Assembly: GCF_000002875.2 (NCBI RefSeq)
Contig: NC_009391.2
Coordinates: 62,001 to 126,000, forward strand
DNA length: 64,000 nucleotides
Source: Leishmania infantum JPCM5
Lineage: Eukaryota > Euglenozoa > Kinetoplastea > Trypanosomatida > Trypanosomatidae
Direction: 5' to 3'
The notes under the pieces were generated by a model. The model made no database searches and was not told where the DNA came from. It saw only the letters and a program-made list of their open reading frames with translations. Each line of letters begins with the position of its first letter. Position 1 is the stretch's first letter. Below are positions 9,841 to 54,196 of the stretch, piece by piece. The translations under genes were made by a program, and so were the position numbers.

Positions 9841-10613
9841 CGCGACTGTCTCCATCATCCACCTTCTCTTTTCCCTGGTAACTGGTTGAGGTAGGAGGTG
9901 GATGGTAAAGGTCGCCGTGTGTTCCCTCTCCAGCGAAGGTATACCTATGTGCGTATTACTGTTGGTGTCGTGTGGGTGTTGAAGATGACGCGTGCGACAG
10001 CGTTGGCGGCGTGCCTGCATAAATCATATTGCATCGTCATCTCGTGTCTTCTCTGTGCCTCTGTTGATGCAACACCGCGAGGCTGTGCTAGCGCTTTCCT
10101 TTTTCATGATGGCTCCGAATCCTGGGTGCTCTTTCACACAAACACAGCCGCACAAGTGTGCCGGCTCGGCAGCGTGCCAAAGCGAAGAGCACGCGCTCTC
10201 CGGGCTGCGGAGGGTGTGAATTTCACGCGGTGCGCCGATATCGGTCTCGTATTGATGCATTCAGAACACTACGTATTGTCGGTGTCGTATGGATGGCCGC
10301 TCTGTCTAGCGCTGACGCGATGGTGCCGGCACCGTCGGCGTTGTGAGGGTGTGCTGCTCAGTCCCTTTTCTTCCGTCCCACACTTTGGCAGAAACTGCCG
10401 ACACCTTTCATCAAGGAAGCAGATGAAGGGGGGGGGGGCATATAACCGACTGCCGAGTACGTGTGCGCCTTTTCTTCACCGCTTCTCTTGCACTGCCTCA
10501 CCTGTTTGCGAGGCACACCGTTCGCCTTTCTACCTCTCTCACGCTACCACACCCACCCACCCCTTCTTCCTCCCTCTCCCTTTGCCTATTTGTTCGCTGA
10601 CCACTGGTGCACG

Positions 10614-10649
<36 letters not shown>

Positions 10650-12047
10650 CACGTTCGCACGTGCCCCCCTTCCCCCTCCTCCTCCTCTGCGATCCAATCT
10701 CCATCAAGGCATATGCGATCTGCTGTACGGCACGAGGGGATGTGCTATCGAATTTCTTCCCCTCTCTCCTTCCTTTCCTCCACGCCTTTGGCGCCTCATC
10801 TTCCTTCCATCGCCTCTATTCTCGTTGACTGAAGCTGTTTTGACTTGCCCACCCTTTCTTGCGATGAGGCACAAGCACCTATGCACATGGACGCCTAGTC
10901 GAGTGCACACGGCGGTGATGGCTCGCCTTGCACAGTGAATGCGGACGTTCGCCCATTGTCCTCTGGCTTCCTGTATCTTCTGCTTCAACACCTTGCTTCT
11001 CTTCCATAGCCAGCCAGCGCGCCTTTCTTGCCGTCTAAAGTACTTTCTTCCTTATCGTTTTCGTCAATGGATTTCCGTGCACGTCTTCCCTCCCCCTTTC
11101 CGTCAGTGTTCCCCAGGCGCTCAGAGCTGGCGAGAAGCACCGGTGTATCGTGCGCCATCGCCTACTTCCGCTGTGTGGATGCACCACGTAATGCCGCTTC
11201 GCTCTCAATTCTTATTTGAAGTCACGTTCTTCATGTGGTCACTCGAATCCCCGCTCAGGCCTTCTTTCCATCGTTGCCGGTGCGTTAGAGTCGGTCCCAC
11301 CCATCCAGCCCCAGTTCACCGCTTCACCAGGTGAGACAGGAGATCCGAAAAGATGGGTGGCCAGGCATTCTCGTGAGCCCCCAATGAAGGTGCACACACC
11401 GTCCCTAAGGATCACCTTGAGTGACAAGGCTCGGCCGAAGCTGTACGATGGCACGCACCCCTCATCTCGGGTTGCGCAACTGTATGTTTTCCTACAGGTC
11501 GCAGCGCTTGTTGTACTCCTCGATACGTCCCCCCTAATCCCCTTCCCCCTCTTCCCTTCCCCTCTCTCGCCTCCTACCTTCTTTCTCGTGCCGGCGAAGG
11601 AAAGCAAGCATTCACACAGACGCATCGACTGTGCGTGTTGGTCATTTTCATCCGTCCTCGCCTTTTCTCTTGTGAGGGGTTTCTGTGGTTGTGTGAGGGT
11701 CATTGCCGTCGCGCTGCCGTAGTTTATTCACGGCGTTCTCTAGGCTGCCACGGCTGTGCTCTGGCCGACGTGCACAAGGCCGTTGGATGCGTTGCGCCGC
11801 TCGCGTTTTTCTTTTGCTCAAGTGCCGAGGTGCTTTCGTGCCGTCACGAATTTTTGCACGAGCGCCTCATCTCAGGCCGCGCGTGCCATTGCCGGCGTTC
11901 TTTGTACATTTCAGCTCCTGGGGCACTGCTTCTGTGTCCACCATTGGCGCAGGCTCCAGTGCGTCTGAGAGCCCGAACACCAGATATACGGACACACACA
12001 CAGGCACGCAAACACGCTTCGGCGTGGCGGGTGTGAGGAGGTAGACA
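9841..12047. other. 2.2-kb intergenic region with AT microsatellite
   Basis: No convincing gene. It includes an (AT)n run at 10619-10643, a G run at about 10430-10438, and several pyrimidine tracts (10540-10600, 10650-10690, 11525-11590). A 346-codon open frame at 9898-10938 reads through the microsatellite and pyrimidine tracts and is not credible. Confidence 0.55.
10619..10643. repeat. (AT)n dinucleotide microsatellite
   Basis: Uninterrupted alternating A/T run of 25 nt, flanked by tac/cat steps. Likely polymorphic between strains. Confidence 0.9.
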
Positions 12048-13586
12048 ATGATGCGATGGGCCGTCGACGTGACGGGCATCGATGTCGCCGAGGACTTGGA
12101 GCGAGAGCAGAGAAAGTGTGTCTACAAGGTCCCACGCGCTGCTAATGGCGAATCGTGGCACGCGGTGGATGATTGGCGACCCAACGCGAGTGAATACAGC
12201 GACGAGCTAGGTAAAGTCTGGGCATTGACCCGGGACGAGGTGCAGGATGCGATTGCGGAGCGGGCGCTGACGGCCAACGCCCTCTTTCGTAATGTTGGGC
12301 GGACCTTAGCAGGCGCACTGCAGCGCCAAGGATCCATCGCCATTGCAGCCGGCTGCGCATCCCAACTGCGCGGCGGTTGCGGTCGAGGGCTGCAGTGGGA
12401 CGGGCTGCTGAGCAATACCCAGAGCATGGCCTCGAATGACTTTGCCTGCGACGCCGTTCCTTCCACGCGCGAAGTGCGCGTATTCAGCACGTTTCTCAAC
12501 GCTGAGGGCAAGCGCACGACTGTGACCGTGAATATGACGCAGCCGACCTACCGCGGTGTCGACGTCGTGGCAGCGTTCTTGCAGCAGGCCGTGGCGACCA
12601 ATGAATCGCTCTCGCAGCGCTACTCGACGAACCCGCGCCTGTACAAGCTGTTCATCGCTGACGAGGACACGGGTGAGGAAGAGATGGCGGCGCAGCTGGA
12701 CCTCGGTGCGCAGAATTTTTCGTGCTACGCCGTTAACCCGATGCCGGCGGCGAAGCTGTTTCTCTTTCCGCAGCGCACAGCCCTGCTGAATACGACAACG
12801 CGCGACGTCAACTTGACCGTGCAGGTGCGCCCATTAGATCCGCAGGCAAAGGCAGTGCAGCGACAGTGCGTCGTGCCGGCCGACATGCTCTCCGAGTCGT
12901 TGGAGGCTACCATCTGTAGCCGTCTGCCAGCCAGCGGGATCATTCAAGGGTCTCTGCGTATCATGCATGGGCCGATGGAACTGAACATTAACGAGTACTA
13001 CAATTTCGGCGCCGGCTGCGGTCAGCCAAACTGCCCCATCGCCGAGCGCACCGTTTTGTCCCTTTTCCGGTTCGGCGTTCGGGAAGTCGTGGTAAACGGG
13101 CGTGCCGTCGAGGAGGCCCCGACAGAGGTTCTGCGCGACTTGACAGAGGACATCATCATTGACATGGGCGTTGATGAGGCAGTATCCTTCCAGCAGTTCG
13201 AGGTGATTTGCATCAACAAGTACGGCGCACGACAGCAGCGGCTGCTCTGTGTGGATGGCGAGCACCTGTACACAATGCGCCCGAACGCGTCGGAGGCGCT
13301 GCCCAAGACGACGGAGCGGACGATCAAGGACATCGAGGAAGTGCGCATCTTCGCCGACAAACCCAAGTACATGGAGATCGCCTATACGAAGAGCTCCCAC
13401 TTTGAGGAGGACCGCTTCGAGTGCACGACGACGTACAACTGTGCGCTTCTAAATGAGAAGATCCGCATCGTGCGCCGCGAACTGCGCAAGCGCGAGGCAG
13501 AGGAGCAGGCGGCGAGTGTCAAGAACGAGACGGCCATGCAGCGCTTCATGACAGGGATTCGCAGTAGGTGGTTTGGTGGGGCGTGA
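12048..13586 (+). CDS. SIN1/AVO1-like protein (CRIM and PH domains), candidate TORC2 subunit
   Basis: 512 aa. SIN1/AVO1 proteins are scaffold subunits of TOR complex 2; their CRIM domain recruits AGC kinases and a C-terminal PH domain binds membranes. Here a ubiquitin-like CRIM candidate lies at about residues 141-215, with a helix (GVDVVAAFLQQAVATNES) followed by LYKLFIADEDTGEEEM, matching the W/Y-xLxIxxEDGEVDED signature, and then the LD...F.CYAV tail. A middle beta-rich region (about 235-375) could match the Ras-binding-like domain. A PH candidate at about 380-490 opens with FQQFEVICINKYGARQQRLL, like the start of the SIN1 PH domain, has a basic turn, and ends in a long helix (NEKIRIVRRELRKREAEE). 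The start is a doublet ATG (12048 and 12051). Identification rests on by-eye domain matching and is the chief uncertainty. Confidence 0.6.
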   Translation: MMRWAVDVTGIDVAEDLEREQRKCVYKVPRAANGESWHAVDDWRPNASEYSDELGKVWALTRDEVQDAIAERALTANALFRNVGRTLAGALQRQGSIAIAAGCASQLRGGCGRGLQWDGLLSNTQSMASNDFACDAVPSTREVRVFSTFLNAEGKRTTVTVNMTQPTYRGVDVVAAFLQQAVATNESLSQRYSTNPRLYKLFIADEDTGEEEMAAQLDLGAQNFSCYAVNPMPAAKLFLFPQRTALLNTTTRDVNLTVQVRPLDPQAKAVQRQCVVPADMLSESLEATICSRLPASGIIQGSLRIMHGPMELNINEYYNFGAGCGQPNCPIAERTVLSLFRFGVREVVVNGRAVEEAPTEVLRDLTEDIIIDMGVDEAVSFQQFEVICINKYGARQQRLLCVDGEHLYTMRPNASEALPKTTERTIKDIEEVRIFADKPKYMEIAYTKSSHFEEDRFECTTTYNCALLNEKIRIVRRELRKREAEEQAASVKNETAMQRFMTGIRSRWFGGA

Positions 13587-18495: not shown

Positions 18496-20370
18496 ATGTT
18501 CCGAATGAAGTCTCTGAAGCTTCTGGTGGTCATCGGTCTGTCGCTGGCCCTCTGCTCCACTTTTTCCCTGGCTGCCGAAAATGGTAAGAGGCTCTATCCC
18601 GCGTGCGGAGTCATAGAGCACACCACCTCGGCCAGCTCGCAGGTGACATCAACCCTGCACAGCTTCTCGGGCCGCACGCACAGCTTGACAATGACCTGCC
18701 TGGCGTACGAGGTTGTGTCTGTGAAAAACGATCACACAGACAAGGACTACTGCCTTGTTGAGCACCAGACCGAGTACATGTACGCCCTCACCATCCACGC
18801 CGTCTACACCACGGGCAACGGCGCTACCGTGGAGCGCAATTTCTCGATTCGCGACATGAGGGGCGGCTCCCTGACAGAGTTGAAAGTGGCAATGCCCACT
18901 CGCAGTCAATTCTCCGTCATGTTCACCAACCTAGCGACAGACACCCGATGCAACCTGCAAGTACGCGCACTCCTTTCGTACGAGATGGCGGACAAGGCTA
19001 GGGTGGGGAACAACACACCGACTGTGGTAGCAGTGTCACCACGCACAGTATACTCGAAGAGCGCCGATCGAAGCGTTCTTGTGCTCGACCACGGCGTTGG
19101 TCAGGTGCCACAGAGCACCGATATTGTCTCGCTTGTCGACTTCTCGCAGGGTACGTGCGCGCAGCCGGATGGCGACGTGCTCTACATGGACTACTTCACC
19201 GCGATACCCGACACAGTTCATGTCTACGGCAACCGGGCCCAGTTCAGCGTGCGCGCCATCACCTTCCGCGAGCCTAACACATACCGCGTGTGCTATCGCG
19301 CGCAAAACAGCCACGTGGCGACGCAGATAGGTGTCATCACCGTGTATGCCGGGAACCCGGCGTACTACGACGTCGTCGGTGGTGCCAACGAGAAGGGCGA
19401 GGTGCTGGTCGGCACTGAGACGACCATCAAGTTCTATGGCTACGGCCTTGACACCCGCAAGAACGGCGACGAAGCCAAGTTTGTGGAGTTCACGAAAGAG
19501 TGCGATACGGGCAGACCCGCCGGTGGCGTCCCTCTTGCCGACGACTTGGAGCCAGAAGACAACTACGGACCGAATACCACCTACTCCCTGTGGAAGTCGA
19601 CCATAACTGAGGGTGGCTCCTACAAGGTGTGCTACAAGCGCAAAGCAGCCAATGCGTGGACCGAGGTGCCGTTCATCGAGGACGTCGCCATCGCTGATAG
19701 GCCCGGGGAGTCCACCACCAAGGCGCCTGCTCCCACACCGACGCATCCCTCCACACACGAGGAGTGTCCCATGGCGACCGAAACGGTGGAGCGCCCGTGG
19801 TCCAAGTTTAAGAGTGCCAAGATCGTGCTCACGACGAAGAAGCTGCCCAGCGACTTCCTGAGCACGCTGAGCAGCCTCCTCTGTCTGAGGCGGTCCATGT
19901 TCACACTGGCGTACCTGAAGCACAACAGCGAGGGCAAACAAGTTGTCTTCCTGGTGCTGAACTGCGAGGAGAACGAGAACGCAGCGGTGCGCGAGTGCAG
20001 CTCGATCGAGCGCCTCAATTACTTTGTATCCTTGTCGAAGAAGCAACTCGAGGACCACGGGATCGAATCGGTGCAGGGTAGCACCCACATGCTGGCGTTC
20101 GACGAGGACGAGGGGAGCAGCGGCAATGTATTCGGGCTCATTTTACTCTGTGTGAGCATATTGGCAGCAGGCGGCATGGTAGTCTTCGCCGTGGGCCGCT
20201 ATATGGAGCGGCGCCACCACTTTGTTCAGTTCGGCCTGGACGACGACGACATTGACGACATGTACGACTTCAACGCCGCACCGAGGTCTGCCATGCGCAA
20301 CGAGTACGATGTGGCGCCTCAGGCAGAGCCGACATGCATCGTCAACTCTGTCATCGAGATTGAAGACTAG
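18496..20370 (+). CDS. Type I membrane protein with repeated beta-rich ectodomain modules, unknown function
   Basis: 624 aa from the ATG at 18496. A clear signal peptide (KLLVVIGLSLALCSTFSLA, about residues 8-26) is followed by a long Cys-containing ectodomain, a Thr/Pro stalk (TKAPAPTPTHPST, about 410-422), a second lumenal domain, one membrane span (about 545-568, GLILLCVSILAAGGMVVFAV) and an acidic cytoplasmic tail with a DDDDIDDMYDF cluster. Two successive ectodomain units end in near-identical strands, YRVCYRAQN and YKVCYKRKA, about 105 residues apart, which suggests duplicated Ig-like or IPT-like beta sandwiches. I do not recognise a named family. The topology fits a surface, flagellar-pocket or endosomal receptor, and the acidic tail could be a sorting signal. 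A longer reading from 18373 would put about 40 Pro/Arg-rich residues before the signal peptide and is unlikely. Confidence 0.8.
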   Translation: MFRMKSLKLLVVIGLSLALCSTFSLAAENGKRLYPACGVIEHTTSASSQVTSTLHSFSGRTHSLTMTCLAYEVVSVKNDHTDKDYCLVEHQTEYMYALTIHAVYTTGNGATVERNFSIRDMRGGSLTELKVAMPTRSQFSVMFTNLATDTRCNLQVRALLSYEMADKARVGNNTPTVVAVSPRTVYSKSADRSVLVLDHGVGQVPQSTDIVSLVDFSQGTCAQPDGDVLYMDYFTAIPDTVHVYGNRAQFSVRAITFREPNTYRVCYRAQNSHVATQIGVITVYAGNPAYYDVVGGANEKGEVLVGTETTIKFYGYGLDTRKNGDEAKFVEFTKECDTGRPAGGVPLADDLEPEDNYGPNTTYSLWKSTITEGGSYKVCYKRKAANAWTEVPFIEDVAIADRPGESTTKAPAPTPTHPSTHEECPMATETVERPWSKFKSAKIVLTTKKLPSDFLSTLSSLLCLRRSMFTLAYLKHNSEGKQVVFLVLNCEENENAAVRECSSIERLNYFVSLSKKQLEDHGIESVQGSTHMLAFDEDEGSSGNVFGLILLCVSILAAGGMVVFAVGRYMERRHHFVQFGLDDDDIDDMYDFNAAPRSAMRNEYDVAPQAEPTCIVNSVIEIED

Positions 20371-36742: not shown

Positions 36743-39700
36743 ATGGCGCATCATCAGCCCACAAATGTGGAGGTGGAAAACAAGGTAGCCTTCTTCGTTC
36801 AGCTCAACGCCTTGCTCACGCGGATCAGCTCCGTGGTGAGCAGCGATGCCCTCAGCAGTGCGCAGAAGGCAAAACTGAGCGACGTGCGTAGCGCCACCGA
36901 GGCATGGCTAAAGGACGTCGGCGTTATTAGTGCACCACGCCCCTTCATCGCCGCCGCACCACCACCACCACCACCACCGACGCCGCTGCGCTCATCCGTA
37001 ACGGAGACCCCTGCAGCAGCAGCGCCCCTGTCGGAAACGGTGGCAGCCAGCAAGCAGCAAGACGAAGAGCAGGCAGAGGCAGCACTGACCCAGGCACCCG
37101 AAGCACCAGCGGCAGAGCAAGCGACGGCAACAACGTCATCGGCTGCAGACGGCCCTGCGCGTGCATCGGCGTCGCCGGCTACGCCTGGAGGATCCAGCAC
37201 CGCCACCGCGGCAGTCACCTCGACGCATGAGCGGGCAGATGCGCGCAAGTTGGTAGGCCTTGTGAGCTACCTGCGACTGCTCTTCGATAGTGACGTACCG
37301 GAGAGGGCGAAACTGCAGGAGTTTGGTAAAAGTCTTGTGCGCCTGTTGATGGTGCGGTGCTGCTCGACGATTATGGCCTCTCTCCAGCACGTCGTGCACC
37401 ACACGTATATCGGCACCACCACCGCCGCCGAGGAGGAGGGCGACGCAGAGGCAGCTCTGTCGGCGCTCTTCGTGCAGCTTGCAAAGGAAATCGACGTGGC
37501 CACGAAGGCTCTGCTCGGCTGTGTTCGACTCATCACCTCCAGCGCCGTCCTGTCAGAAGCGGCCAGTGCCCGTTTTCCTGTGCAGCTGTGTGTCGACGTG
37601 GTGAAGCAGACCCGTCGCGCACAGGTGTACTTCCAGTCACGCGTAGAGAGGGAGGAGTATCATCTGCTGCGCACGTTCGTCACGTCCTCCGATACCGCGG
37701 CAAAATCGGCGGAGGGGTCATTGGAGGACGTGGACGCGGTGCACGACGCCCTTGAGAGCGTATCACCGGAGCGTGTGGCGGCACACGTGCTGCGCCGCGT
37801 TGAAGCGCTGCGGCGGCGATGGGGCCCATCTCTGGTGCACAGCGTCCGCAACATCGGTGACGTCATTGAGCCATCTGTGAAGTTTCTGGCGACAGTTGCC
37901 GCCGTCCGTGCCGAGGTAGCACCGGCGCCGCTTGTGGCACTCAAAAAGGACGCCGCCCACGACCTCTTTTCGCTCTGCGAGCCTGTGACGGTGGCGACTA
38001 CGGCGGCGGGCGGGCAGCCCTGTCTTGCCAAGTCGCTCTCCACATGTGACTCGCCATCTGTCGTGGCGGCGCCCGTTAGTGCGAGCAGCGCTACCCCACT
38101 GGCGTGGCGAGCAGCGGCGGGCGAGGTGCTCATCCGCCTCGGCAGCAGCTTCTCCGCCGACTACCTCGCTGCCGTGGCGGCGTGCTGCGGGGACAGCAAC
38201 GAAGGCGAGCTTCTCGCTACTCGGCTTCTCACGGACATGTTGAAGTGCGTCGCGGCCCACGATTTGCCGCTTCTGCGGTGTGTGCTGCTAGACGGTCGGT
38301 GGTACCGGGCCTTGTACGGCGGCATCCTCAACTGCGTCTCCTCAAGCCAGCCGGCAGTGTTGGCTGCCGGGCTGGATGCGCTCGGGCTGCTAACCACCGC
38401 CTGCCCAGTGGTGATTGGCCGGGAGGTGGGTCTCCTTTACAGCAACGTTGTACTGCGCCTGCTGGAGTCCTCGAACACCCCGCAGTATGTGAAGCGCACT
38501 ATCGTGCTTCACTTTGTCACAACGTTCATGGGCAGCGGCAGCACCCTCCCCGCCGACGGCGGCGGCGGCGCCATTCCTCTCATCCTCCACTTGTACCGCC
38601 TGTACGACCTCAATGTGCACGCCCATCAGCTGAACATCATGCAGCAGCTCACCAGCGCCCTCTCCCGCATCGTGCGGGCCGCGCCAAAGGAAGAGCTCAT
38701 GCAGGACGCCGTGGTGCGGGAACAACTGCAAATCCAGCAAGAGGCGGCGCCAAGTGCAGTGATGACGGCGCCTGCGGCTCAGTTGGACGGGGCACAGCAT
38801 CGTGCTGAAGTTGCGAACGGCACCACGTCCTCGGAGCCGTCCTCGCTGGTCGCGGCCGCCCTCAACCCGGCCTCACTCTCACTCCCTGCCATGGCGCTAC
38901 ACGGACTCGTCCGGATCGTCGAACTCCTGACGACGCAGACGCCTCCCGAGGAGGAGAGCGGCAAGGATGTGCTCGCCTCACTGCCTGCCATGACGTGTCG
39001 CGAGTCTAAGCTCAAGGAGCAGCAGGAGGTCGACCGCTTCAACGCTGCTCCCAAGAAGGCGATCTACAAGCTCTTCAACGTAACTGCCGAGGAGAACGCG
39101 ATTCCTGCCTCGCACGCCGACTTCAGCAGCCAGTGGGAGCACACGCTGCTCCCACCGCTTACGTCTGCTGCCGCAGCGAAGGTGGAGGCCGTCGCCGACT
39201 TTCTCAACCAAGTCAGCTCCCTCAACCCTGAGGCGGTGTCGGAGTTCCTGACGACGCCGGAGGTGTTTCCGCTGCAAGTCTGCAGAACCTACCTGCGGCG
39301 CCTGCCACTGGCCGGGTTCAGTGTGCTGGAGGCCATCAGCGAGCTCCTCATGCGTGTGCAGCTGCCCAAAGAGGGGCAGCGCATCGAACGACTGCTCGAG
39401 TACTTCTCCGCCGCTTACTATGAGGCAAACCGCGGGCACGGCATCGACAGCGACATCTTCCCGTTTAAAAGCGACACGGCGGTGTTCATTGTCGTGGTCG
39501 CTACGGTGATGCTCAACACCAACATCCACAACCCTTCCGCAGGGATGCGGTTAGATGTGAAGGCGTTTCGCGGCCAGCTGCGCCGCTGCAACGACGACGA
39601 GAGCTTCGCCGACAGCTTCGTGGACGATATTTTCGACCGCATCAGCACGCACCCGCTCGAGAGCATCAAGAGCGTTGCCGCTGACGCGAACGCGAGCACC

Positions 39701-42700
39701 GACAGCACCAGCCGCGGGCCCTTCGACATGTTCTTTGTATCGCAGGAGGAGAAGCGGCAGCTGGCGTTTGGGGTGGAGCGGCAGCGCATGGTGAGCGAGA
39801 CGCGGCAGCTGCTGAAGCTGCGAACCCAGCAGGAGCCGCTCGCGCCTGCCCCGGAGGGGTGGTGGTGCGCTGTAGCGAAAGATTTCTTCCTCAGCACCTG
39901 GTCCTCAGTGTGCGCCGTCTTCGGCCCTGCCATGTACGAGGGCACCACTGCGGCGCCGTCGGATGTCCTGCTGCAGTGTGTGCGAGGGCTGCAGTCGCTG
40001 CTGTGCATGGCAGCCGCGTTCGACCTGCCAACGGAGTGCACCGTTACGCTGCTTACCCTGCTGCGCATGGCGGATGCGACGCCGGTGAGGGAGCATTGCC
40101 GGCGAGCGGTGTTGGTCGTGGCCGCCACCACATACGCCGTGAACTTTCCGGTAAGATGCTGGGTTGCGGTGTGCCAGATCATTCTGGAGGTGCGCCGCAC
40201 CGCGGCGGCGGCGACCCCGCCCCTCGTCGAAGACGTCTTCACACGGATCGAGGGCATCACGCGTCTTAGCGTCGAGACTGAAGAGAGGCGAGCGGCTGAC
40301 GACTCCGCGCCGAAGACTGACCGGCCTACGGAGGCAATCCACCGCGCCATGGAAGGAGTCATGACCACCATCAGCGGCTACGCTGTCGGCGACGTCGCGA
40401 ACCTCTCCTCCGCGCTGGCGGTGCTGCGTCGGGCCCTCGAGTACACGCGCATTGTGCACGCGAATCGCAGAACGGACATTGTGTACTTCGTAAATGTGCG
40501 CGACTTCACTGCGGTGGTGGCGCCGGCCTACGTGGAGCTCATGAAGAAGCACAGCTCCAGCGACGACGGACTGCAGGTGCTCTTTGAGTGCCTGGTGGAC
40601 TTGCTGTGCACAATGTGGGTGTCCTACTCGACTAGCCGGGTCATGGTCCCGGCACCGGCGGCGGCGGCGGCGGGGAAGGCGGAGACGGCGGAGACGCCGA
40701 CGGTGGATACCGCTCCAGCCGAATTCGTGCAAAGCTTCCGCTTCCTGCGCAGCGTCTATGACGTGACGCTCGCGTCCGCCTCTGAGGGGGCCGCGACGCT
40801 GCTGCAGATGCACACGCTACAAGCCATCAAGGAGGTGCTGTCGCGCACGGTACGCACGGCAGAGATGACGGCCGCTGGCCAGCACCTCTCCCTCTACACC
40901 ATGATGGCGTCGTGGCAAGAGGTGCTGTACCCGCTCGCCGTCGCGTTGTGCGACCGTAACAGCACCGCCGTCGAGGCAGGCAGTCTCGCCCTGTTGGTGC
41001 TGCGCAAGTTGGTCGCACTCTGCGGCGGCACCGGCACCGCATCCTCCGATCGACTTCCAGGGCCGGTGCGCGCCGCACTGCTGTGGTTGCTGGCTCAGCT
41101 CGCCTACATGGGCGGTATGTGCGGAGACGCGGACAGCGCTCAAGTGTGTGTGGCACTCCTGAGCAGCATCTGCACGACCACGGTAGCAATGTCCGTGACG
41201 GCCGCGTCGTCATCATCGCCGGGGTGTAGTACGGCCGGTCCGGCCTCTCCGGTGACCGCCGTGGCGGACCCGAGCACCGCTGCGCGGCTGATGGAACAGC
41301 GCAACGCGCTAACACAGCAAGTGGTGACGTCCATTGAAGAGAACCCGCACTATGTCGTCCAGTGCACGCTAGCGCGGCTGTGCTTGCTGCTGCAGTGCGA
41401 GCGAGAACAGACGCGTGCGGAGGTGATGCACCAGCTGCGCACCCTCTCGCTGCAGATGCGGCCGGCGCAGCTGTGCCCCATGGCGTTGGACTTGGCGGAG
41501 GTCGTGTTAGAGGGCACCATCGGGCACGCCGCACACCACCGCCAGGCGCCACGCACGCAGTCGAGTCTTATCCCCTTTCTCTTCTTCCAGATGCCGGTGC
41601 CGGCGTCGATGCGGCGGTGCTCGCGGACGTCATTCCGGGCCACCGTGCCAGCAGCGCTCGGGTTCCTGGCCAACGAGCTGCTCACCGGCCTCAGTGGGGA
41701 CGACCTGGCGATGGCCGCCGAGTCGGTCATGCGCCGCTGCCTCCTGCCGATCCTCCTGAGCCCCAATAGCCCCCATCAATGCCGCTTCATCGCCGTCCGC
41801 TCCCTCTCCCAATGCGTCTCCGTCTGCCTACCGCAGAACAGCGCTGCGCGGTCCCCGCAGCTGGCGCAGTGCGTGCTCGACTGCCTGGCGATGGCACTGT
41901 ATGCGGTGCGCGTCCCGCTCACCTCCGTGGTGTCGCCCGACACCAGCTTCGTGGGCCGGCGCTGGCTGGACGCGCCGGCGATCAGCTCTGCGTCAGGATG
42001 GGCAGCGTACTGTGCTCAGGCTACTCACACGGTGGAGCTGATGGACCGGGCAGAGCCGCAGTGGCTCGTGCGCGGGGCGGCTGCAGCAGCGGCGCAAGTG
42101 GCGCTAAGTACATTGGCAGCAACGGCAACCGAAGAGCGGGATGGCGCGGCCGCTACCCCGACATCGAGTCGCGGGGGTTGCGCCACCAGCGAAGAGACAC
42201 ATCGCGCCGACGGCGCCGCCTTCGTCCCGGACGAGGCGCTCATCGAGTATGTGAACCTGCTCGCCCAAATGTTGGCCGGTGTGCCGAAAGAGCTGCAGGG
42301 TGTTGTGGCGAGCGCCGCCGCCGCTGCTGGCAGCGCCACGCCGTCTGCCGGCGCGGTGGCGGTGCCGGACATGAATACAGATGACTGGAAGCTGCCCCGA
42401 GCCTCTGTCACGGTGCTGCTGCAGTTGTGCCTTCAGGCGGGCGGCACGCTCTTCGCCGTGTTGTGGCGCGTTAACCACCCGCACGAGGTGGAGCAGTACG
42501 CGATGCAGTCGGTGGAGTCGAGACGGGAGGCGCTAGCGTTCACCAGAAACAGCGGCCTGTTGCCGCACGCGGCGATACGCAGCGTCCTACAGTGCTACCT
42601 GAAATTGGCCGTTCTGTCCACCGAGTACCCCTCTGCCGAGCTGCTGGAGGTTACCACGGACATCATCGAGGGAATTCGGCAGGTGCAGGCTGCCACCCAC

Positions 42701-43420
42701 GCCGCCGCGCCGTCGCCCTCGCCGCCGTCCTTGGCAGTCGGCGGCGGCGCCGGGGCTGTGACGGCGGGGGCGAGCAGCACCTCCCTCGCTGCCGACGGCG
42801 CCTCGCTCCAGCGACTGCCGCCGCAAGAGCAGCAACACGTGCGCACCTGCAACTCAGGCATGTACCAGCAGCTGTCTGTTGTCCTGGGGTATCTGGTGCG
42901 GTTGCTGACGGGGCAATCCACGTCGATGGCGTCGGTGGCCGGTTGGGCAAGACGGCAGGAGGCCTTCGAGGCAATGGCGCTGCACCCGCAGTTCTTCTCG
43001 TCCCTGGTCTCGCTGCTGACGCCGACGGCCGGTATGCTGATCATCACGGTGCGCGACTATTTCGCATGGTACATCGCTCACGCACAGCTGCCGCATCAGG
43101 CAAGCGAAATCGCCGGGCCTGTCACGGTTAGCGGTGGCGCTGCCTGCTCGGGCGAGGCTACCTCAACCTGGGCAGCGGAGAGCGACGAGGAAGGCCCGTC
43201 ATCTTCGCAGCTGACGGCCTTGAACGGCACGCACGACGGCAAAGGCAGCGCTTTCGGCAGCTACAGTGTCAACGGTGGCGGGTCGGTGAAGCTCAGTTAT
43301 GTGAAGGCAGCTCGCACACTCTCGCCGAAGCCCTCAACGGTGGGCATGGAAAGGATGTGCATGACGGAAGTGGTCAGCGATGTGGCCGCGAAGAGCACCC
43401 GCAACTTCAATAGTGAATGA
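36743..43420 (+). CDS. Large Sec7-domain Arf guanine-nucleotide exchange factor (BIG/Sec7-like)
   Basis: 2225 aa, the largest gene in the window. Sec7 domains load GTP onto Arf GTPases to start coat assembly at Golgi or endosomes. The Sec7 domain lies at about residues 763-965: it opens with VDRFNAAPKKAIYKLF, contains the glutamic-finger region VQLPKEGQRIERLLEYF with the catalytic Glu877, and the second motif VVATVMLNTNIHNP. Gly before the finger in the usual LPGE is Lys here. Before it is a Pro/Ala low-complexity stretch (about 70-160) and a helical DCB/HUS-like half; after it come over 1200 residues of helical-repeat sequence (HDS-like), broken by Ala/Ser/Thr-rich linkers. This order is that of BIG1/BIG2/yeast Sec7. 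The start is the ATG at 36743; frame upstream to 36656 has no ATG. GC content is very high throughout. Confidence 0.93.
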   Translation: MAHHQPTNVEVENKVAFFVQLNALLTRISSVVSSDALSSAQKAKLSDVRSATEAWLKDVGVISAPRPFIAAAPPPPPPPTPLRSSVTETPAAAAPLSETVAASKQQDEEQAEAALTQAPEAPAAEQATATTSSAADGPARASASPATPGGSSTATAAVTSTHERADARKLVGLVSYLRLLFDSDVPERAKLQEFGKSLVRLLMVRCCSTIMASLQHVVHHTYIGTTTAAEEEGDAEAALSALFVQLAKEIDVATKALLGCVRLITSSAVLSEAASARFPVQLCVDVVKQTRRAQVYFQSRVEREEYHLLRTFVTSSDTAAKSAEGSLEDVDAVHDALESVSPERVAAHVLRRVEALRRRWGPSLVHSVRNIGDVIEPSVKFLATVAAVRAEVAPAPLVALKKDAAHDLFSLCEPVTVATTAAGGQPCLAKSLSTCDSPSVVAAPVSASSATPLAWRAAAGEVLIRLGSSFSADYLAAVAACCGDSNEGELLATRLLTDMLKCVAAHDLPLLRCVLLDGRWYRALYGGILNCVSSSQPAVLAAGLDALGLLTTACPVVIGREVGLLYSNVVLRLLESSNTPQYVKRTIVLHFVTTFMGSGSTLPADGGGGAIPLILHLYRLYDLNVHAHQLNIMQQLTSALSRIVRAAPKEELMQDAVVREQLQIQQEAAPSAVMTAPAAQLDGAQHRAEVANGTTSSEPSSLVAAALNPASLSLPAMALHGLVRIVELLTTQTPPEEESGKDVLASLPAMTCRESKLKEQQEVDRFNAAPKKAIYKLFNVTAEENAIPASHADFSSQWEHTLLPPLTSAAAAKVEAVADFLNQVSSLNPEAVSEFLTTPEVFPLQVCRTYLRRLPLAGFSVLEAISELLMRVQLPKEGQRIERLLEYFSAAYYEANRGHGIDSDIFPFKSDTAVFIVVVATVMLNTNIHNPSAGMRLDVKAFRGQLRRCNDDESFADSFVDDIFDRISTHPLESIKSVAADANASTDSTSRGPFDMFFVSQEEKRQLAFGVERQRMVSETRQLLKLRTQQEPLAPAPEGWWCAVAKDFFLSTWSSVCAVFGPAMYEGTTAAPSDVLLQCVRGLQSLLCMAAAFDLPTECTVTLLTLLRMADATPVREHCRRAVLVVAATTYAVNFPVRCWVAVCQIILEVRRTAAAATPPLVEDVFTRIEGITRLSVETEERRAADDSAPKTDRPTEAIHRAMEGVMTTISGYAVGDVANLSSALAVLRRALEYTRIVHANRRTDIVYFVNVRDFTAVVAPAYVELMKKHSSSDDGLQVLFECLVDLLCTMWVSYSTSRVMVPAPAAAAAGKAETAETPTVDTAPAEFVQSFRFLRSVYDVTLASASEGAATLLQMHTLQAIKEVLSRTVRTAEMTAAGQHLSLYTMMASWQEVLYPLAVALCDRNSTAVEAGSLALLVLRKLVALCGGTGTASSDRLPGPVRAALLWLLAQLAYMGGMCGDADSAQVCVALLSSICTTTVAMSVTAASSSSPGCSTAGPASPVTAVADPSTAARLMEQRNALTQQVVTSIEENPHYVVQCTLARLCLLLQCEREQTRAEVMHQLRTLSLQMRPAQLCPMALDLAEVVLEGTIGHAAHHRQAPRTQSSLIPFLFFQMPVPASMRRCSRTSFRATVPAALGFLANELLTGLSGDDLAMAAESVMRRCLLPILLSPNSPHQCRFIAVRSLSQCVSVCLPQNSAARSPQLAQCVLDCLAMALYAVRVPLTSVVSPDTSFVGRRWLDAPAISSASGWAAYCAQATHTVELMDRAEPQWLVRGAAAAAAQVALSTLAATATEERDGAAATPTSSRGGCATSEETHRADGAAFVPDEALIEYVNLLAQMLAGVPKELQGVVASAAAAAGSATPSAGAVAVPDMNTDDWKLPRASVTVLLQLCLQAGGTLFAVLWRVNHPHEVEQYAMQSVESRREALAFTRNSGLLPHAAIRSVLQCYLKLAVLSTEYPSAELLEVTTDIIEGIRQVQAATHAAAPSPSPPSLAVGGGAGAVTAGASSTSLAADGASLQRLPPQEQQHVRTCNSGMYQQLSVVLGYLVRLLTGQSTSMASVAGWARRQEAFEAMALHPQFFSSLVSLLTPTAGMLIITVRDYFAWYIAHAQLPHQASEIAGPVTVSGGAACSGEATSTWAAESDEEGPSSSQLTALNGTHDGKGSAFGSYSVNGGGSVKLSYVKAARTLSPKPSTVGMERMCMTEVVSDVAAKSTRNFNSE

Positions 43421-48461: not shown

Positions 48462-50315
48462 ATGAAGTGGGACTGGGGTGTTCTGCGGCGGCAGACGCTG
48501 GAGTTGATGTACGGTGCCACCGCCGAGCAGCGGCACCATCAGTCGCAGCACCGAGATCAGAAGCAGGCGTACGAGGCCTTCATGGCGATGTCCGCCAGCG
48601 CCGCGGGTGAACCGCATTGCAGTGGGGGCAGCGCGGCTCCTAGCGCTTTCCCGCCTGCCGCTGGGAGGCGGCACCGCGACCACGGATACGCCGCTGTCCG
48701 AAAACACTTCCAGCGCATCCCAGATATGTTTCTCGACATAGAGTTTTACTTTGCCATCACTGGCGTGGGCCTCTTCGACCATCTCGTCGGGCTGCTGCTG
48801 CTGCCGCTGAAGGTGCTCACACAGTGGCGACGGTGCGAACTACGGGACATTATTACACTGCTTGTTCTCACCATGACACTGGGTAGCTACTGGGTTGCGG
48901 GTCTGGCGACAACGCAGCTGTACCCCTACCTCTACCACGCCGTACGACGCACGTCGTTCATCAAGGTCGTCATGATCTTCAGCATCCTCGATGTGGCGGA
49001 CAAGATCCTCTCATCCCTCTCGCAGGACTCGCTCGAGGTGCTCTACGCCGCCGTCGAAGATGAGTACGCCTACCGCTGCTCTCGCCGCCGCCAGACCAAG
49101 CCAGCTGCGGCAGACACACCGACGAAGAGGGCTGCTTTTGGGAGTGCGTGTGCAGGTCGCGACGACGCCGGATCCGCCAGCGCCCGACAGCACACGCCTC
49201 CATCGCGGTGGCTCCTCGCCGGCAGCGCGATCGCCGCCTGCATCAGCACCTCCTGCCACTCCCTCTCTCTCCTGCTGCACGTCGTCACGTTGAACGTCAC
49301 GATAAACGCGGAGGGAAACTCGTTGCTGGCGCTGCTGGTCGGCAATAACCTCACGGAGCTGAAGAGCGTCGTGCTCAAGAAGAGCACGCCGGAGTCGCTG
49401 CACAGCGTGTGCGCCCTCGACGCGCTGGAGCGCATGCAGTACGTCGTCTTCTTCTTTGTTATGCTGCTGCACCACATGCACGAGCGCTTCACAGACTTCG
49501 CCGTCGCAGACGTCTTCGTCATCCTCTGCGTCGAGGTGGCTATCGACTTTGTTAAGCATCTCTTCGTCGTTCGCTTCAATGGCATTCCGCCTTCGATGTT
49601 CCGGGCCTACTCGCAGCTGGCGTTGCTAGACTTGAGCTGCGAGGCGGTGCTGTGGCGGCTGCCGTCGCTGGAGGTAGTGGCGAGCGGGCCCGGCAGCGGC
49701 GTCGCAACGCGCATGGAAGAAGCGGCCGAGCTGCTCACGCCTGCTTTCGGCTTTGCCCCCAAGAACGTTAAGCGGAATGGCTTCGACGCCATCGCGTATG
49801 CGGCGCTGCTGCTGTGGAGCTGCGAGCGAGTGGCGGGGTACCTCCTGTGGCAAGCGCCTTTGGTGTGCGTCTTGCTCGTGCTAATCCTCGCGCTTCTGAA
49901 GCTCATGTTGTCCAGTGTCGTCCACGGCGTGTGCGCGCGCTTCACTCTTCGGACGTTAGTGGTATCCCCACCGTCGTGGCCGCCGCTGCCACAGCCAAGC
50001 GCTGTCTCTGCGCCTCTCGACGGCGGCAGCTGCAGTGAAAGCGGCGCCAGCCAGCGAAGGAGCGCGTCTCTGACGAGCTCGCTGGTCTGCACGTGGGGTG
50101 TTCGGATGGGTGTCTCACCGATCAGCACGCCGCGCGCGACGCCCGTCGGCGGCAGCGGCCACGCACACATCAGTGCGGCAACGTCTTCCTCTGTGAAGAG
50201 CAAGAGTAGCCCAGCAGCAGTGCGCACGTTGGTGCGGCTGACGCCGCTTCTACTGGCTCTGCTGAAGGCAGATCGCTTCGACCTACAGGCTGGCAAGGCG
50301 AAGCGCACCTACTGA
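48462..50315 (+). CDS. TAPT1: TAPT1/EMP65-family multi-pass membrane protein
   Basis: 617 aa. The TAPT1 family (DUF747) comprises ER or ciliary-base membrane proteins; the yeast member EMP65 works in ER quality control with a SUN-like partner. The family core is clear: a first hydrophobic block (about 95-117), the hallmark SFIKVVMIFSILDVADK followed by SLSQDSLEVLY (about 165-196; relatives have SVIKLYIIYNMLEVADRL and QDILDALY), then LHVVTLNVTIN, LLVGNNLTELKSVVLKK and CVEVAIDFVKHLFVVRFN (about 355-373). A lumenal/cytosolic insert of low complexity (about 205-250) interrupts the core, and the last 110 residues are Ser/Pro-rich and basic. It is the last plus-strand gene before the strand switch. 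Start is the first ATG (48462). Molecular role here is unknown. Confidence 0.9.
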   Translation: MKWDWGVLRRQTLELMYGATAEQRHHQSQHRDQKQAYEAFMAMSASAAGEPHCSGGSAAPSAFPPAAGRRHRDHGYAAVRKHFQRIPDMFLDIEFYFAITGVGLFDHLVGLLLLPLKVLTQWRRCELRDIITLLVLTMTLGSYWVAGLATTQLYPYLYHAVRRTSFIKVVMIFSILDVADKILSSLSQDSLEVLYAAVEDEYAYRCSRRRQTKPAAADTPTKRAAFGSACAGRDDAGSASARQHTPPSRWLLAGSAIAACISTSCHSLSLLLHVVTLNVTINAEGNSLLALLVGNNLTELKSVVLKKSTPESLHSVCALDALERMQYVVFFFVMLLHHMHERFTDFAVADVFVILCVEVAIDFVKHLFVVRFNGIPPSMFRAYSQLALLDLSCEAVLWRLPSLEVVASGPGSGVATRMEEAAELLTPAFGFAPKNVKRNGFDAIAYAALLLWSCERVAGYLLWQAPLVCVLLVLILALLKLMLSSVVHGVCARFTLRTLVVSPPSWPPLPQPSAVSAPLDGGSCSESGASQRRSASLTSSLVCTWGVRMGVSPISTPRATPVGGSGHAHISAATSSSVKSKSSPAAVRTLVRLTPLLLALLKADRFDLQAGKAKRTY

Positions 50316-50839
50316 CGTCATATCCTCATCTGTCGTTTTGTAGGTGGGTGGCCGTGTGTGCCTCGCGCGCGCAGGCTGGCATAGCGCGCCCCTCCACTCC
50401 TCCTCCTTCTCTGCTGCGCACCTAGCACCTCTTGGCCCTTGGCCAGCGGAGCTCTTGTGCGTGTGTGTGCAGCTGCAGCGGCGCAGAGAGCCCACGTGCG
50501 TACAGGCCCATGTACTTCTGTGAGCGCACCGCATGGCATCTGACCCACGCGTACGTGCACCACTCGCGCAGCCCCTACCCCCTCCTTCGGCTTCGACGTC
50601 CCTCTCTCCGCACTGCTCCCCTGTCTCAGCCGCTGTGCATCTGTCGCCGTTCACGCTCTGTCCTTCCGTGGGTGTGTCACCGACGCGATGTCATAGCACG
50701 CACGTGCACGTGCACGACACAGGCGCCGTTCTCGTCGAACGAAATCGTGGGGCCGCTCGCCAGCAGCGCGTGTCAGTCGAGTCTCAGCAACCGCGGCAGC
50801 CACCGCGCCACCGGCAACGCACGGTGAGAGGAAGACACC

Positions 50840-51910
50840 AGGCGCCGTCCCGGTGGCGGTGGAGACGCGCTGGTGGGCATGTCCTTGAAACCGTGGCACT
50901 ACGTGCCGCTGCCTCTCTCACAGGTGGTGCTTCTCCCTGCGACACAAGCAGCGCATGGCGGATAAGGTGCAACAGCAATGCTGGTTTCCGCCCTTCTGTG
51001 TGACGATGATCGCGGTGGTGCTTCTCGGGTCCAGGTCCGAGAAGCACCCGCTTTTGCGCCGAGCGTGTGCGTCGTCCATCACGTGAATGGTGCGCAGCCC
51101 GTTCCCCTCTCGGAGATGCGGGGCGTACTTTTCCTGAGCGCCTTCCGTATCGACGCGGAGGCTGCCACCCCGCGAAGTGCGACGGTCTCCGCCAGTACGC
51201 CTGTGAAGGGCAACAGCGCCCGCTGCCCGTGGGCGAGCAGCTGGTAGAACAGCAGTGTCAACGCGTGGGCGCCGGTCCTGTCCAACAAGAGAGCAACCCC
51301 CGCTGAGCATCCCCAGCCGCATCTGTGGGCACGCAAACCCAGCCGCCGCACCCGCAATGGTGTTTGACTACGACGCCGACACAGGAAGCTACACCGTCTT
51401 CTGGCCCCTAGCAGCCTCCTGCACGGCGGTGAGCTCCGTGCTGGGCGTAATGAAGACGCCGAAGAGACGCGTGGCGTACAAGGGGTCGGCGGTGACGCAG
51501 GAACTGTGGATTGCAGTGCACCGAAACGGACCTCACCCGACACGGCGAGAACGCCTCAGCGGCGGCGGCGGCGAGTACAGCACGTCGTGCGCCGCATCAA
51601 GACGCGTCGCTAAACCGTCGCAGAGGTGCAGCCCCCCACTGCCGCCGCCGGGGCGGTGGTGCAAACGCTTTGGAAACGTTCTGGCGGTGCTCGCACACGC
51701 ACAGGACCGGACACACACAACGGGCGCTGGTGCTGGCGGCGTACCTGGCCCACGCCACTGACTGCGGCTACGTGAAGGACGTGCCGCGAGACAACCCCAT
51801 CGAGGAGTATGCGGCTCGCGTTGGTGCGCGGCTGGAAGCGCTGCCGAACAGCATCGTCAAGTGCATCGAGGGGCAATCGGTGTCGAGAGTTCGGAGGGGG
51901 AGCAGGCTGC
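50840..51910 (+). pseudogene. Decayed protein gene, family not recognised
   Basis: Protein-like stretches alternate between plus frames: KQRMADKVQQQCWFPPF and VLLGSRSEKHPLLRRA near 50945-51065, then PLSEMRGVLFLSAFRIDAE near 51105, QYACEGQQRPLPVGEQLV near 51195, FDYDADTGSYTVFWP from 51363 and LGVMKTPKRRVAYKG near 51440, then LAAYLAHATDCGYVKDV and EEYAARVGARLEAL near 51735-51840. Stops and frame changes separate them, so no intact frame exists. Composition resembles soluble trypanosomatid protein. The extent is approximate and the identity unknown. Confidence 0.45.
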
Positions 51911-52158
51911 TGTCCAATGTTAATAACTCTCCCTGTGTCTGTATATGCGTCGCTGCGCACGAGCAGCTGAATCTCTCTGTTGGTCTCTTTCTATTCTGTG
52001 AGCTGTCGAGGCTCGCTTGCCCATTCCACAGCACACGCGCTGGCTCTCCATCGCGACACCGAAGAGCCAACTAGGTGTGAGAAGTCACGTAAGTGGGTCT
52101 GAGAGCCGCACGTCGTGGCAGCCCTGCTGCTCTCCTGTTCCCCGCGACGCCTTGTACG

Positions 52159-52159
<1 letters not shown>

Positions 52160-52194
<35 letters not shown>
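52160..52194. repeat. (CA)n dinucleotide microsatellite
   Basis: Uninterrupted CA run of 35 nt. It lies within the convergent strand-switch region. Confidence 0.95.
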
Positions 52195-52195
<1 letters not shown>

Positions 52196-52879
52196 ACTCT
52201 TCTCCAATCTTGCGTCCGTTGTGCCCCTTACACCTGCCTATCTCCCACTCTCTCTATCTCGCACCCTGCCTGTCTCAAAACTCCATGCTGCCTCCGTCAG
52301 ACAACGCCCTGCAAGCACCACTGACATTGTCATGACCTGGAGCACGCTACGCGCACACACTCACTGGCCTTCTCCCCGTTATCTTGATCTGTACGCATCA
52401 TCATTGATCAGCAAGTCTCTGAGTGCAAGGCTGGCAACCAACCCCTCTGGCTGCTGGGTCTTGACGAGATCCACTGGGGCCGTCAGGTTCAGCGTCTTCT
52501 GCAAGTGTTGGCACTTGCCCCCGTGCAGTGGCTCGCCGGAGTTGATGGGGTGCCTCCCTCTCTGTTCAGCGTGTAAGCCCTATGCCACCTCTCAATCAAA
52601 GCCTCCGTCTCGCATGCGATGTGGGCAAGCCGTCGGTAGAGACACTCACGCGGGTGTGCAGGCGTGCGCACAGGCTCAGAAGGCCACTTCATGGCGCGGC
52701 ACGTGACGTGGGCAGTGAGACGTGCTCATACATGTCTGCACGTACTTGTGTCTCCGTGTGTCTGTCTGTCTGCATATGCGTGCGTGAGTCGTGCTTCTCC
52801 TTTCGCGTTTTCCGTTGTTGGTTCTCTCATGGTTTGCACACCCCTCATGTCGAGGGCGGCGCACACATACGCACACACA

Positions 52880-53378
52880 CCTCCGCGCGTGGCATCTCCG
52901 GGTCCGGTGTGTCCAGCTCGGTCTGGGTGGACGCCGAGCAGCCCCCTCTCCCCGCCCCCATCCCGGCCGAATGCCGAGCCACTTCTGGCGGTGCGCGTGC
53001 CAAGCGCCTACGACGTGGGCGAGTGAGAGCGAGTCGTCGCTGCGGATGTCGGCGGGCGGGTCCTGGACGGCGTGGCGCCGGGGCGAGCGGCGGCAGTGAA
53101 CGCGTTTGTGGTTCTCATTGGATAGGCAAAAAGTGTCCGCGCGACTCGAGCGTATGCCACACCCGGCCCTCGCACCGCCTGCTGGTGTGGGGCGCCTGAG
53201 AGCCACCCTACGGTGCGCGGGGTGGGTGGGCGGCGCTTGAGGGCACGGGCCCTCCTCGGGCGACCGGGTCGGCGCACTGCTGCAACGCGTGTCTACCGGT
53301 GCTTCGCACCACGCGGATGCGGCCTGCGACAGGGTCGGGGGTGGAGCGGCGTTGGATCTCACGTTGTGCGGCAGAGAA
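52880..53378 (+). mobile_element. SIDER2-like dispersed repeat, copy 3 (499 bp)
   Basis: Same 499-bp unit as copies 1 and 2. It differs from copy 2 by one base (ttggatctc) and from copy 1 by about four, by eye. It follows a CA-rich stretch (gcacacatacgcacacacac) and ends gcagagaaa before tgaggcgagc. Unlike the others it lies in the strand-switch region, about 2.6 kb beyond the last plus-strand gene. Confidence 0.7.
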
Positions 53379-53720
53379 ATGAGGCGAGCTGATGAGCATG
53401 GTTTGCAAGCAGCCACCCCTTCACCGACGCACACGCAGAGACACGCTTGGGGCTGGGGGCGTATGCTGAGCATGTGCGTTGACGGGCGCGTGTTTGTCCG
53501 GCGTTCGTGGGTGCAGCTGGCGGCGTGGCGGCTGCCCTTTTCCCAGCGTTTGGGGACGTCTCTCTGCTCGTTGTCGTGTTCTCTCCGCCGCCGCGTGGCG
53601 AGGTCGTTTCCCCCTTCCTTTGCCGCGCGCGGCCTCGCACCCGCCGCCAGCATGCGGGGGCGGGGTGGGGGTGGGGGGCCGGGCCTTTTCGCCGGGCGCC
53701 CCACGCAAGGGGGGCGGGGG

Positions 53721-53868
53721 CGAACCTGGCGGCGCCGGGGAGGGGGGGCGAACCTGGCGGCGCCGGGGAGGGGGGGCGAACCTGGCGGCGCCGGGGAGGG
53801 GGGGCGAACCTGGCGGCGCCGGGGAGGGGGGGCGAACCTGGCGGCGCCGGGGAGGGGGGGGGCGAACC
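53721..53868. repeat. G-rich 28-bp tandem repeat, five units plus a partial one
   Basis: Unit cgaacctggcggcgcc followed by gggg, a and 7 g. Units start at 53721, 53749, 53777, 53805 and 53833; a sixth begins at 53863 after a two-G expansion and breaks off into ttcccaatggg. Each unit contains the palindrome ggcgcc and two G runs, so the strand can form G-quadruplexes. Upstream sequence (53650-53720) is also strongly G-rich. The run of N begins a few bases later, so the true array may be longer. Confidence 0.95.
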
Positions 53869-53879
53869 TTCCCAATGGG

Positions 53880-53980
53880 NNNNNNNNNNNNNNNNNNNNN
53901 NNNNNNNNNNNNNNNNNNNNNNNNNNNNNNNNNNNNNNNNNNNNNNNNNNNNNNNNNNNNNNNNNNNNNNNNNNNNNNNN
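53880..53980. other. Assembly gap (101 N)
   Basis: 101 unresolved bases directly after the G-rich tandem repeat and directly before an inverted fragment of the dispersed repeat. The length near 100 suggests a placeholder of unknown true size. Confidence 0.98.
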
Positions 53981-54012
53981 CACAAACGCGTTCACTGCCG
54001 CCGCTCGCCCCG
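53981..54012 (-). mobile_element. Inverted fragment of the SIDER2-like repeat
   Basis: 32 bases (cacaaacgcgttcactgccg and on to cgccccg) are the exact reverse complement of an internal part of the 499-bp element (14156-14187 in copy 1). Homology stops at 54013, where sequence reads acgtcatcgg; in element orientation this is gatgacgt, which also occurs in the left flanks of copies 1 and 2. The other end is cut by the gap. Confidence 0.75.
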
Positions 54013-54196
54013 ACGTCATCGGGGTAGGAGGAGAATATGTGGGGTCGACGAAGAGAAAACGATACGAACACTCACGCGCAAGAGTGGTATGATACATAAC
54101 TGCGGCTTGCGCATCTTTGCCACAGGAGCAGCTCTCACGAGAGGGCGGCCTGGAGCGCATGTCTGTGCCCACTCCCGGCCCTCGCTCTCGTCTCGC

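Follow-up and report, generated by a model that had tools for sequence, protein, structure and literature searches.

A Leishmania infantum gene that probably encodes a trypanosomatid SIN1, a candidate TORC2 subunit

We analysed a window of 64,000 nucleotides from the genome of Leishmania infantum JPCM5 (contig NC_009391.2, positions 62,001 to 126,000), in which an earlier note, made from the sequence alone, had singled out one gene as a candidate SIN1/AVO1 subunit of target of rapamycin complex 2 (TORC2). Translation of 12048-13586 on the + strand confirmed an open frame of 512 amino acids without an internal stop. Our analysis indicates that this gene very probably encodes the trypanosomatid SIN1 (Avo1/MAPKAP1), an inferred TORC2 subunit.

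Conservation of the gene and its C-terminal PH domain

The locus is a conserved gene. A protein search, for which the scored set comprised the 7998 best-sharing candidates, yielded 31 relatives with 36-89% identity and 80-100% query coverage, and a second-round profile search recovered the identical set of 32 proteins (the query and its 31 relatives). All 21 relatives that carry an organism name are trypanosomatid, from the genera Leishmania, Novymonas, Porcisia, Lotmaria, Leptomonas, Phytomonas, Strigomonas, Angomonas and Trypanosoma, with the four named Leishmania species showing 84-89% identity to the query. Using the mean frequency of the commonest residue in the 32 sequences as a measure of conservation, we observed three conserved blocks, at residues 138-240 (0.75), 250-352 (0.78) and 375-480 (0.76), together with an N-terminal motif (0.70), outside which the remaining stretches score 0.28-0.61. 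Within the motif, R3, W4, V6, G10, D16 and L17 are each present in at least 90% of the sequences, and the stretches directly following it score 0.45, 0.43 and 0.28.

At the C-terminal end, where a PH-like domain had been proposed around FQQFEVICINKYG (residues 381-393), Pfam SIN1_PH (PF16979) matched the protein with an E-value of 7.2e-11 and 42.8 bits, against a cut-off of 27, and no other Pfam family matched at E<=10. At the latter threshold, SIN1_PH matches 30 of the 32 family members, and its single match at E<=0.001 in the whole 32-Mb genome falls at this locus. Its sequence classes the C-terminal domain as a PH domain of SIN1 type. This label is already public, because 14 of the 31 relatives bear automatic database names of SIN1-type PH or SAPK-interacting protein 1.

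Predicted CRIM-like and RBD-like domains

In the AlphaFold2 model, a ubiquitin-like domain is followed by a second domain of beta-grasp fold and then by a PH barrel, bearing out the SIN1-type order of CRIM-like segment, middle beta domain and PH-like domain that the earlier note had read from the sequence; the structure prediction it had suggested as a check thus returned both the ubiquitin-like fold and the PH barrel. Modelled in isolation, residues 136-245 formed a ubiquitin-like fold with a predicted local distance difference test score (pLDDT) of 88.4. In a Foldseek search with this first domain alone, the CRIM of Schizosaccharomyces pombe Sin1 (2rvk) ranked 4th of 543 matches at a modest E-value of 2.7e-3, and a second S. 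pombe CRIM entry ranked 11th (7.2e-3). The segment LYKLFIADEDTGEEEM (residues 198-213), previously noted as CRIM-like, lies inside this predicted domain and includes most of an acidic loop, which in 32 of 32 sequences holds four to six acidic and no basic residues and is flanked by the invariant L201 and L217. An acidic loop typical of CRIM lies within a predicted ubiquitin-like domain. The CRIM stretch YxLxIA-acidic-LD is spaced identically in human SIN1 (residues 230-249) and in the query (residues 199-218), and S. pombe Sin1 (2rvk, 2ruj) shares the CRIM fold and the acidic loop. In an ungapped register, the leucines L348 and L364 of S. pombe Sin1, whose positions were taken from the text of a paper and not from the Sin1 sequence, are also leucines in the query.

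The proposed middle beta domain was present, and its description could be refined to RBD-like: strands and one helix at residues 254-351 make a second beta-grasp domain in the model. The best non-FERM Foldseek match of the whole model was the human SIN1 RBD-PH structure (7lc1_D, 214 residues), with 233 aligned columns and an E-value of 5.4e-9, and the predicted domain between CRIM and PH is RBD-like, of ubiquitin-type beta-grasp fold.

Human SIN1 (MAPKAP1) has the same order of ubiquitin-like CRIM, ubiquitin-like RBD and PH, and its PH domain (7lc1 RBD-PH, 3voq PH) is like that of the query both in fold and in SIN1_PH family membership. The layout common to both consists of an N-terminal motif (residues 1-22 here), a variable linker, a CRIM-like domain with an acidic loop, an RBD-like domain, a PH domain and a helix (Table 1). 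By contrast, no resemblance was seen between the N-terminal regions of the two proteins, and the loop hydrophobics of human SIN1 lie at other places than those of the query in the ungapped register. Saccharomyces cerevisiae Avo1 is presumably the same subunit. For the N-terminal helix, the pLDDT was 75 in the first block of residues 61-80 and 64 in the second, and lower beyond.

Table 1. Features of the SIN1-like gene, in window coordinates
Feature	Residues	Position	Strand	Basis
SIN1-like gene	512 aa	12048..13586	+	Open reading frame, 31 relatives, Pfam match
Conserved N-terminal motif (MMRWAVDVTGIDVAEDL...)	1-22	12048..12113	+	Near-invariant residues
Predicted helix, N-terminal region	62-83	12231..12296	+	AlphaFold2 model
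CRIM-like ubiquitin-fold domain	138-240	12459..12767	+	Isolated fold, Foldseek match to Sin1 CRIM
Acidic loop DEDTGEEEMA	205-214	12660..12689	+	Conserved acidity in 32 sequences
Second beta-grasp domain (RBD-like)	250-352	12795..13103	+	AlphaFold2 elements 254-351, Foldseek alignment
SIN1-type PH domain	375-480 (Pfam match 381-473)	13170..13487	+	Pfam SIN1_PH
Long C-terminal helix, extending the PH helix	462-509	13431..13574	+	AlphaFold2 model

Identity as SIN1, TORC2 partners and competing explanations

SIN1_PH, RICTOR and TOR (as FRB) are all present in the same genome. On contig 23, one open frame (588474-591818) carries RICTOR_N, RICTOR_M and RasGEF_N_2 together with a sub-threshold RICTOR_V, and is by these matches the predicted RICTOR/AVO3 orthologue. 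The genome contains three FRB domains, which fits the four Trypanosoma brucei TORs, TOR4 being without FRB, in the available text of a review (one of PMC3901119, PMC5461346). In the portions available, both reviews name TOR2 and AVO3 as the TORC2-specific parts in T. brucei; AVO3 is thereby paired with TOR2, and not with TOR1 as in the earlier note (PMC3901119, PMC5461346). For TbTOR2, effects of its loss on endocytosis and cytokinesis are reported (one of PMC3901119, PMC5461346). The identification as SIN1 is supported by the predicted domain folds, by a PH domain whose sequence is of SIN1 type, by the conservation of the acidic loop, by the single genomic SIN1_PH match and by the RICTOR and TOR genes, and the SIN1/AVO1 assignment originally proposed finds its support in the SIN1_PH match and the Foldseek match to SIN1 RBD-PH.

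Several results weigh against this identification. The Pfam CRIM profile (PF16978), named beforehand as a check, had no match at E<=10 in the protein or in its 31 relatives, and none in the whole genome at E<=1, where the control was silent as well. None of the 543 Foldseek matches to the first domain reaches an E-value of 0.001, CRIM is absent among the 50 VIA rows listed for it, and the CRIM match of the modelled fold stands no higher than those of other ubiquitin folds. L357 and F361, the hydrophobic residues of the S. pombe loop, lie opposite E210 and A214 in the ungapped register; this register is not forced, because the hhalign CRIM alignment, itself non-significant, places a one-residue gap inside the acidic loop. 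When compared by hhalign with 13 vertebrate SIN1s, the whole protein gave no significant match, and its CRIM, RBD and PH slices all fell within column-shuffled controls (60 shuffles each), although this test is low in power since the PH domain, secure by Pfam, fails too. Searches of the PDB by sequence, with both protein and profile, found no SIN1 and gave weak unrelated matches, the best being coatomer epsilon at 0.012 (E 1.2 for the best stretch alone). BLASTP with a mammalian-type SIN1 revealed no pairwise similarity (best E 14), and NCBIfam, a bacterial and archaeal library, gave no match. Myosin_TH1 also matches 4 of the 32 members, with a best value of 0.0012. Finally, the full AlphaFold2 model has a predicted template modelling score (pTM) of 0.31, so its domain orientations are not reliable.

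If the protein is SIN1, its most likely role would be docking AGC kinases and membranes on TOR2-AVO3, with every binding step taken by homology. The available text of two papers describes a human TORC2 in which SIN1 links RICTOR and LST8 through its N-terminal region, the CRIM recruits AGC kinases, and the flexible RBD and PH bind Ras and phosphoinositides (PMC9583166, PMC10903481). Similarly, the N-terminal motif and helices of the Leishmania protein may pin it to RICTOR/AVO3 and LST8. The CRIM domain would lie close to the active site of TOR2, with the acidic loop holding a substrate AGC kinase. The RBD-like domain would receive regulatory input, perhaps from a small GTPase, and the PH domain and the long C-terminal helix would attach the complex to phosphoinositide membranes, with a possible further role in gating the active site.

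On contig 30 (L014:1501-3033), we observed a 510-residue protein with an N-terminal PH and a kinase domain in Pfam, in which LAGYTY occurs downstream of the kinase, approximately 100 residues before the C-terminal end. We read this hexapeptide as resembling a degenerate AGC hydrophobic motif, and the protein is a candidate Akt/RAC-like TORC2 substrate that the acidic loop might hold.

A variant of this scheme, which we regard as rather unlikely, is that SIN1 has been remodelled to serve a rapamycin-accessible TORC2, which the available text of the reviews reports for T. brucei (PMC3901119, PMC5461346): the loop would have kept its acidity, moved its hydrophobics and taken up other AGC kinases, with the RBD-like domain reading a non-Ras GTPase. 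The different kinase set would follow from the moved CRIM hydrophobic contacts (M213 instead of L357/F361).

Very improbable is a SIN1 descendant outside TORC2, its PH and ubiquitin domains retained by descent and serving a TOR3 or TOR4 complex or another kinase. The four T. brucei TOR kinases have distinct partners (one of PMC3901119, PMC5461346) and Leishmania likewise has four TORs (PMC10933368), according to the portions of these sources available, and the CRIM loop hydrophobic pair is not kept in place in the ungapped register; against this, the same genome encodes RICTOR, the acidic loop is kept throughout the family, and the available part of a 2025 survey reports SIN1 never without RICTOR (PMC12467227).

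A FERM-like or RA-PH adaptor of the talin, kindlin or RIAM type, unrelated to TOR and linking membranes to the cytoskeleton through ubiquitin-like modules and a PH/PTB lobe, is a very improbable reading, even though four talin FERM entries score above human SIN1 RBD-PH in Foldseek. In FERM proteins, a helical F2 lobe separates the ubiquitin lobe from F3. We rejected a FERM protein because this lobe is missing in the model, in which only residues 353-374 (approximately 22) stand between the second beta-grasp domain and the PH, and because Pfam gave no FERM family at E<=10; nor did it give an RA family. RIAM and lamellipodin RA-PH, at 1.7e-5 and 2.7e-5 in Foldseek, fall behind SIN1 RBD-PH. Chance resemblance of a lineage-specific protein sharing only common folds, to which the lack of a significant profile match beyond the PH might point, has a negligible probability given that SIN1_PH matches well over its cut-off and at no other place in the genome, with the SIN1 domain order and an acidic loop upstream of it.

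The gap in trypanosome TORC2 that the earlier note expected a SIN1 to fill is only partly open, because 14 of the 31 relatives already bear a SIN1 label and, according to the available text of a 2025 survey, a small part of the Discoba and Metamonada has SIN1, which is detected less often than RICTOR (PMC12467227). The gene may already be listed in Table 1 of a 2017 review, the available part of which shows SIN1 among its columns and L. major and T. brucei among its rows (PMC5745459). Among the matches listed in a literature search, titles and abstracts revealed no study devoted to trypanosomatid SIN1, and when searched by term, the main text of a 2024 Leishmania TORC1 paper contained no SIN1, AVO or RICTOR (PMC10933368). 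If the identification holds, the gene would account for the missing part of trypanosome TORC2 that docks substrates and membranes, would offer a bait for purifying the complex, would speak for a TORC2 that is complete in a deep branch of the eukaryotes, and would suggest that some SIN1 absences in surveys are detection failures.

Neighbouring genes in the window

Long open reading frames at 9985-10938, 18496-20370, 52676-54160 (-), 57954-59114 (-) and 62062-63936 (-) had no Pfam match at E<=0.01. Between 3103 and 31197, Pfam identified an acyl-CoA dehydrogenase, a MaoC dehydratase, cytochrome c1, a PreP-like M16 peptidase and a B12-dependent methionine synthase close together, several of whose products would be mitochondrial. 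A large Sec7-domain protein of 2225 amino acids, likely an Arf GEF, is encoded at 36743-43420. As judged by long open reading frames, the coding strand appears to change at 50315-52676, with a DUF747 (TAPT1-like) gene on the + strand and genes on the - strand, and this interval is perhaps a convergent strand-switch region.
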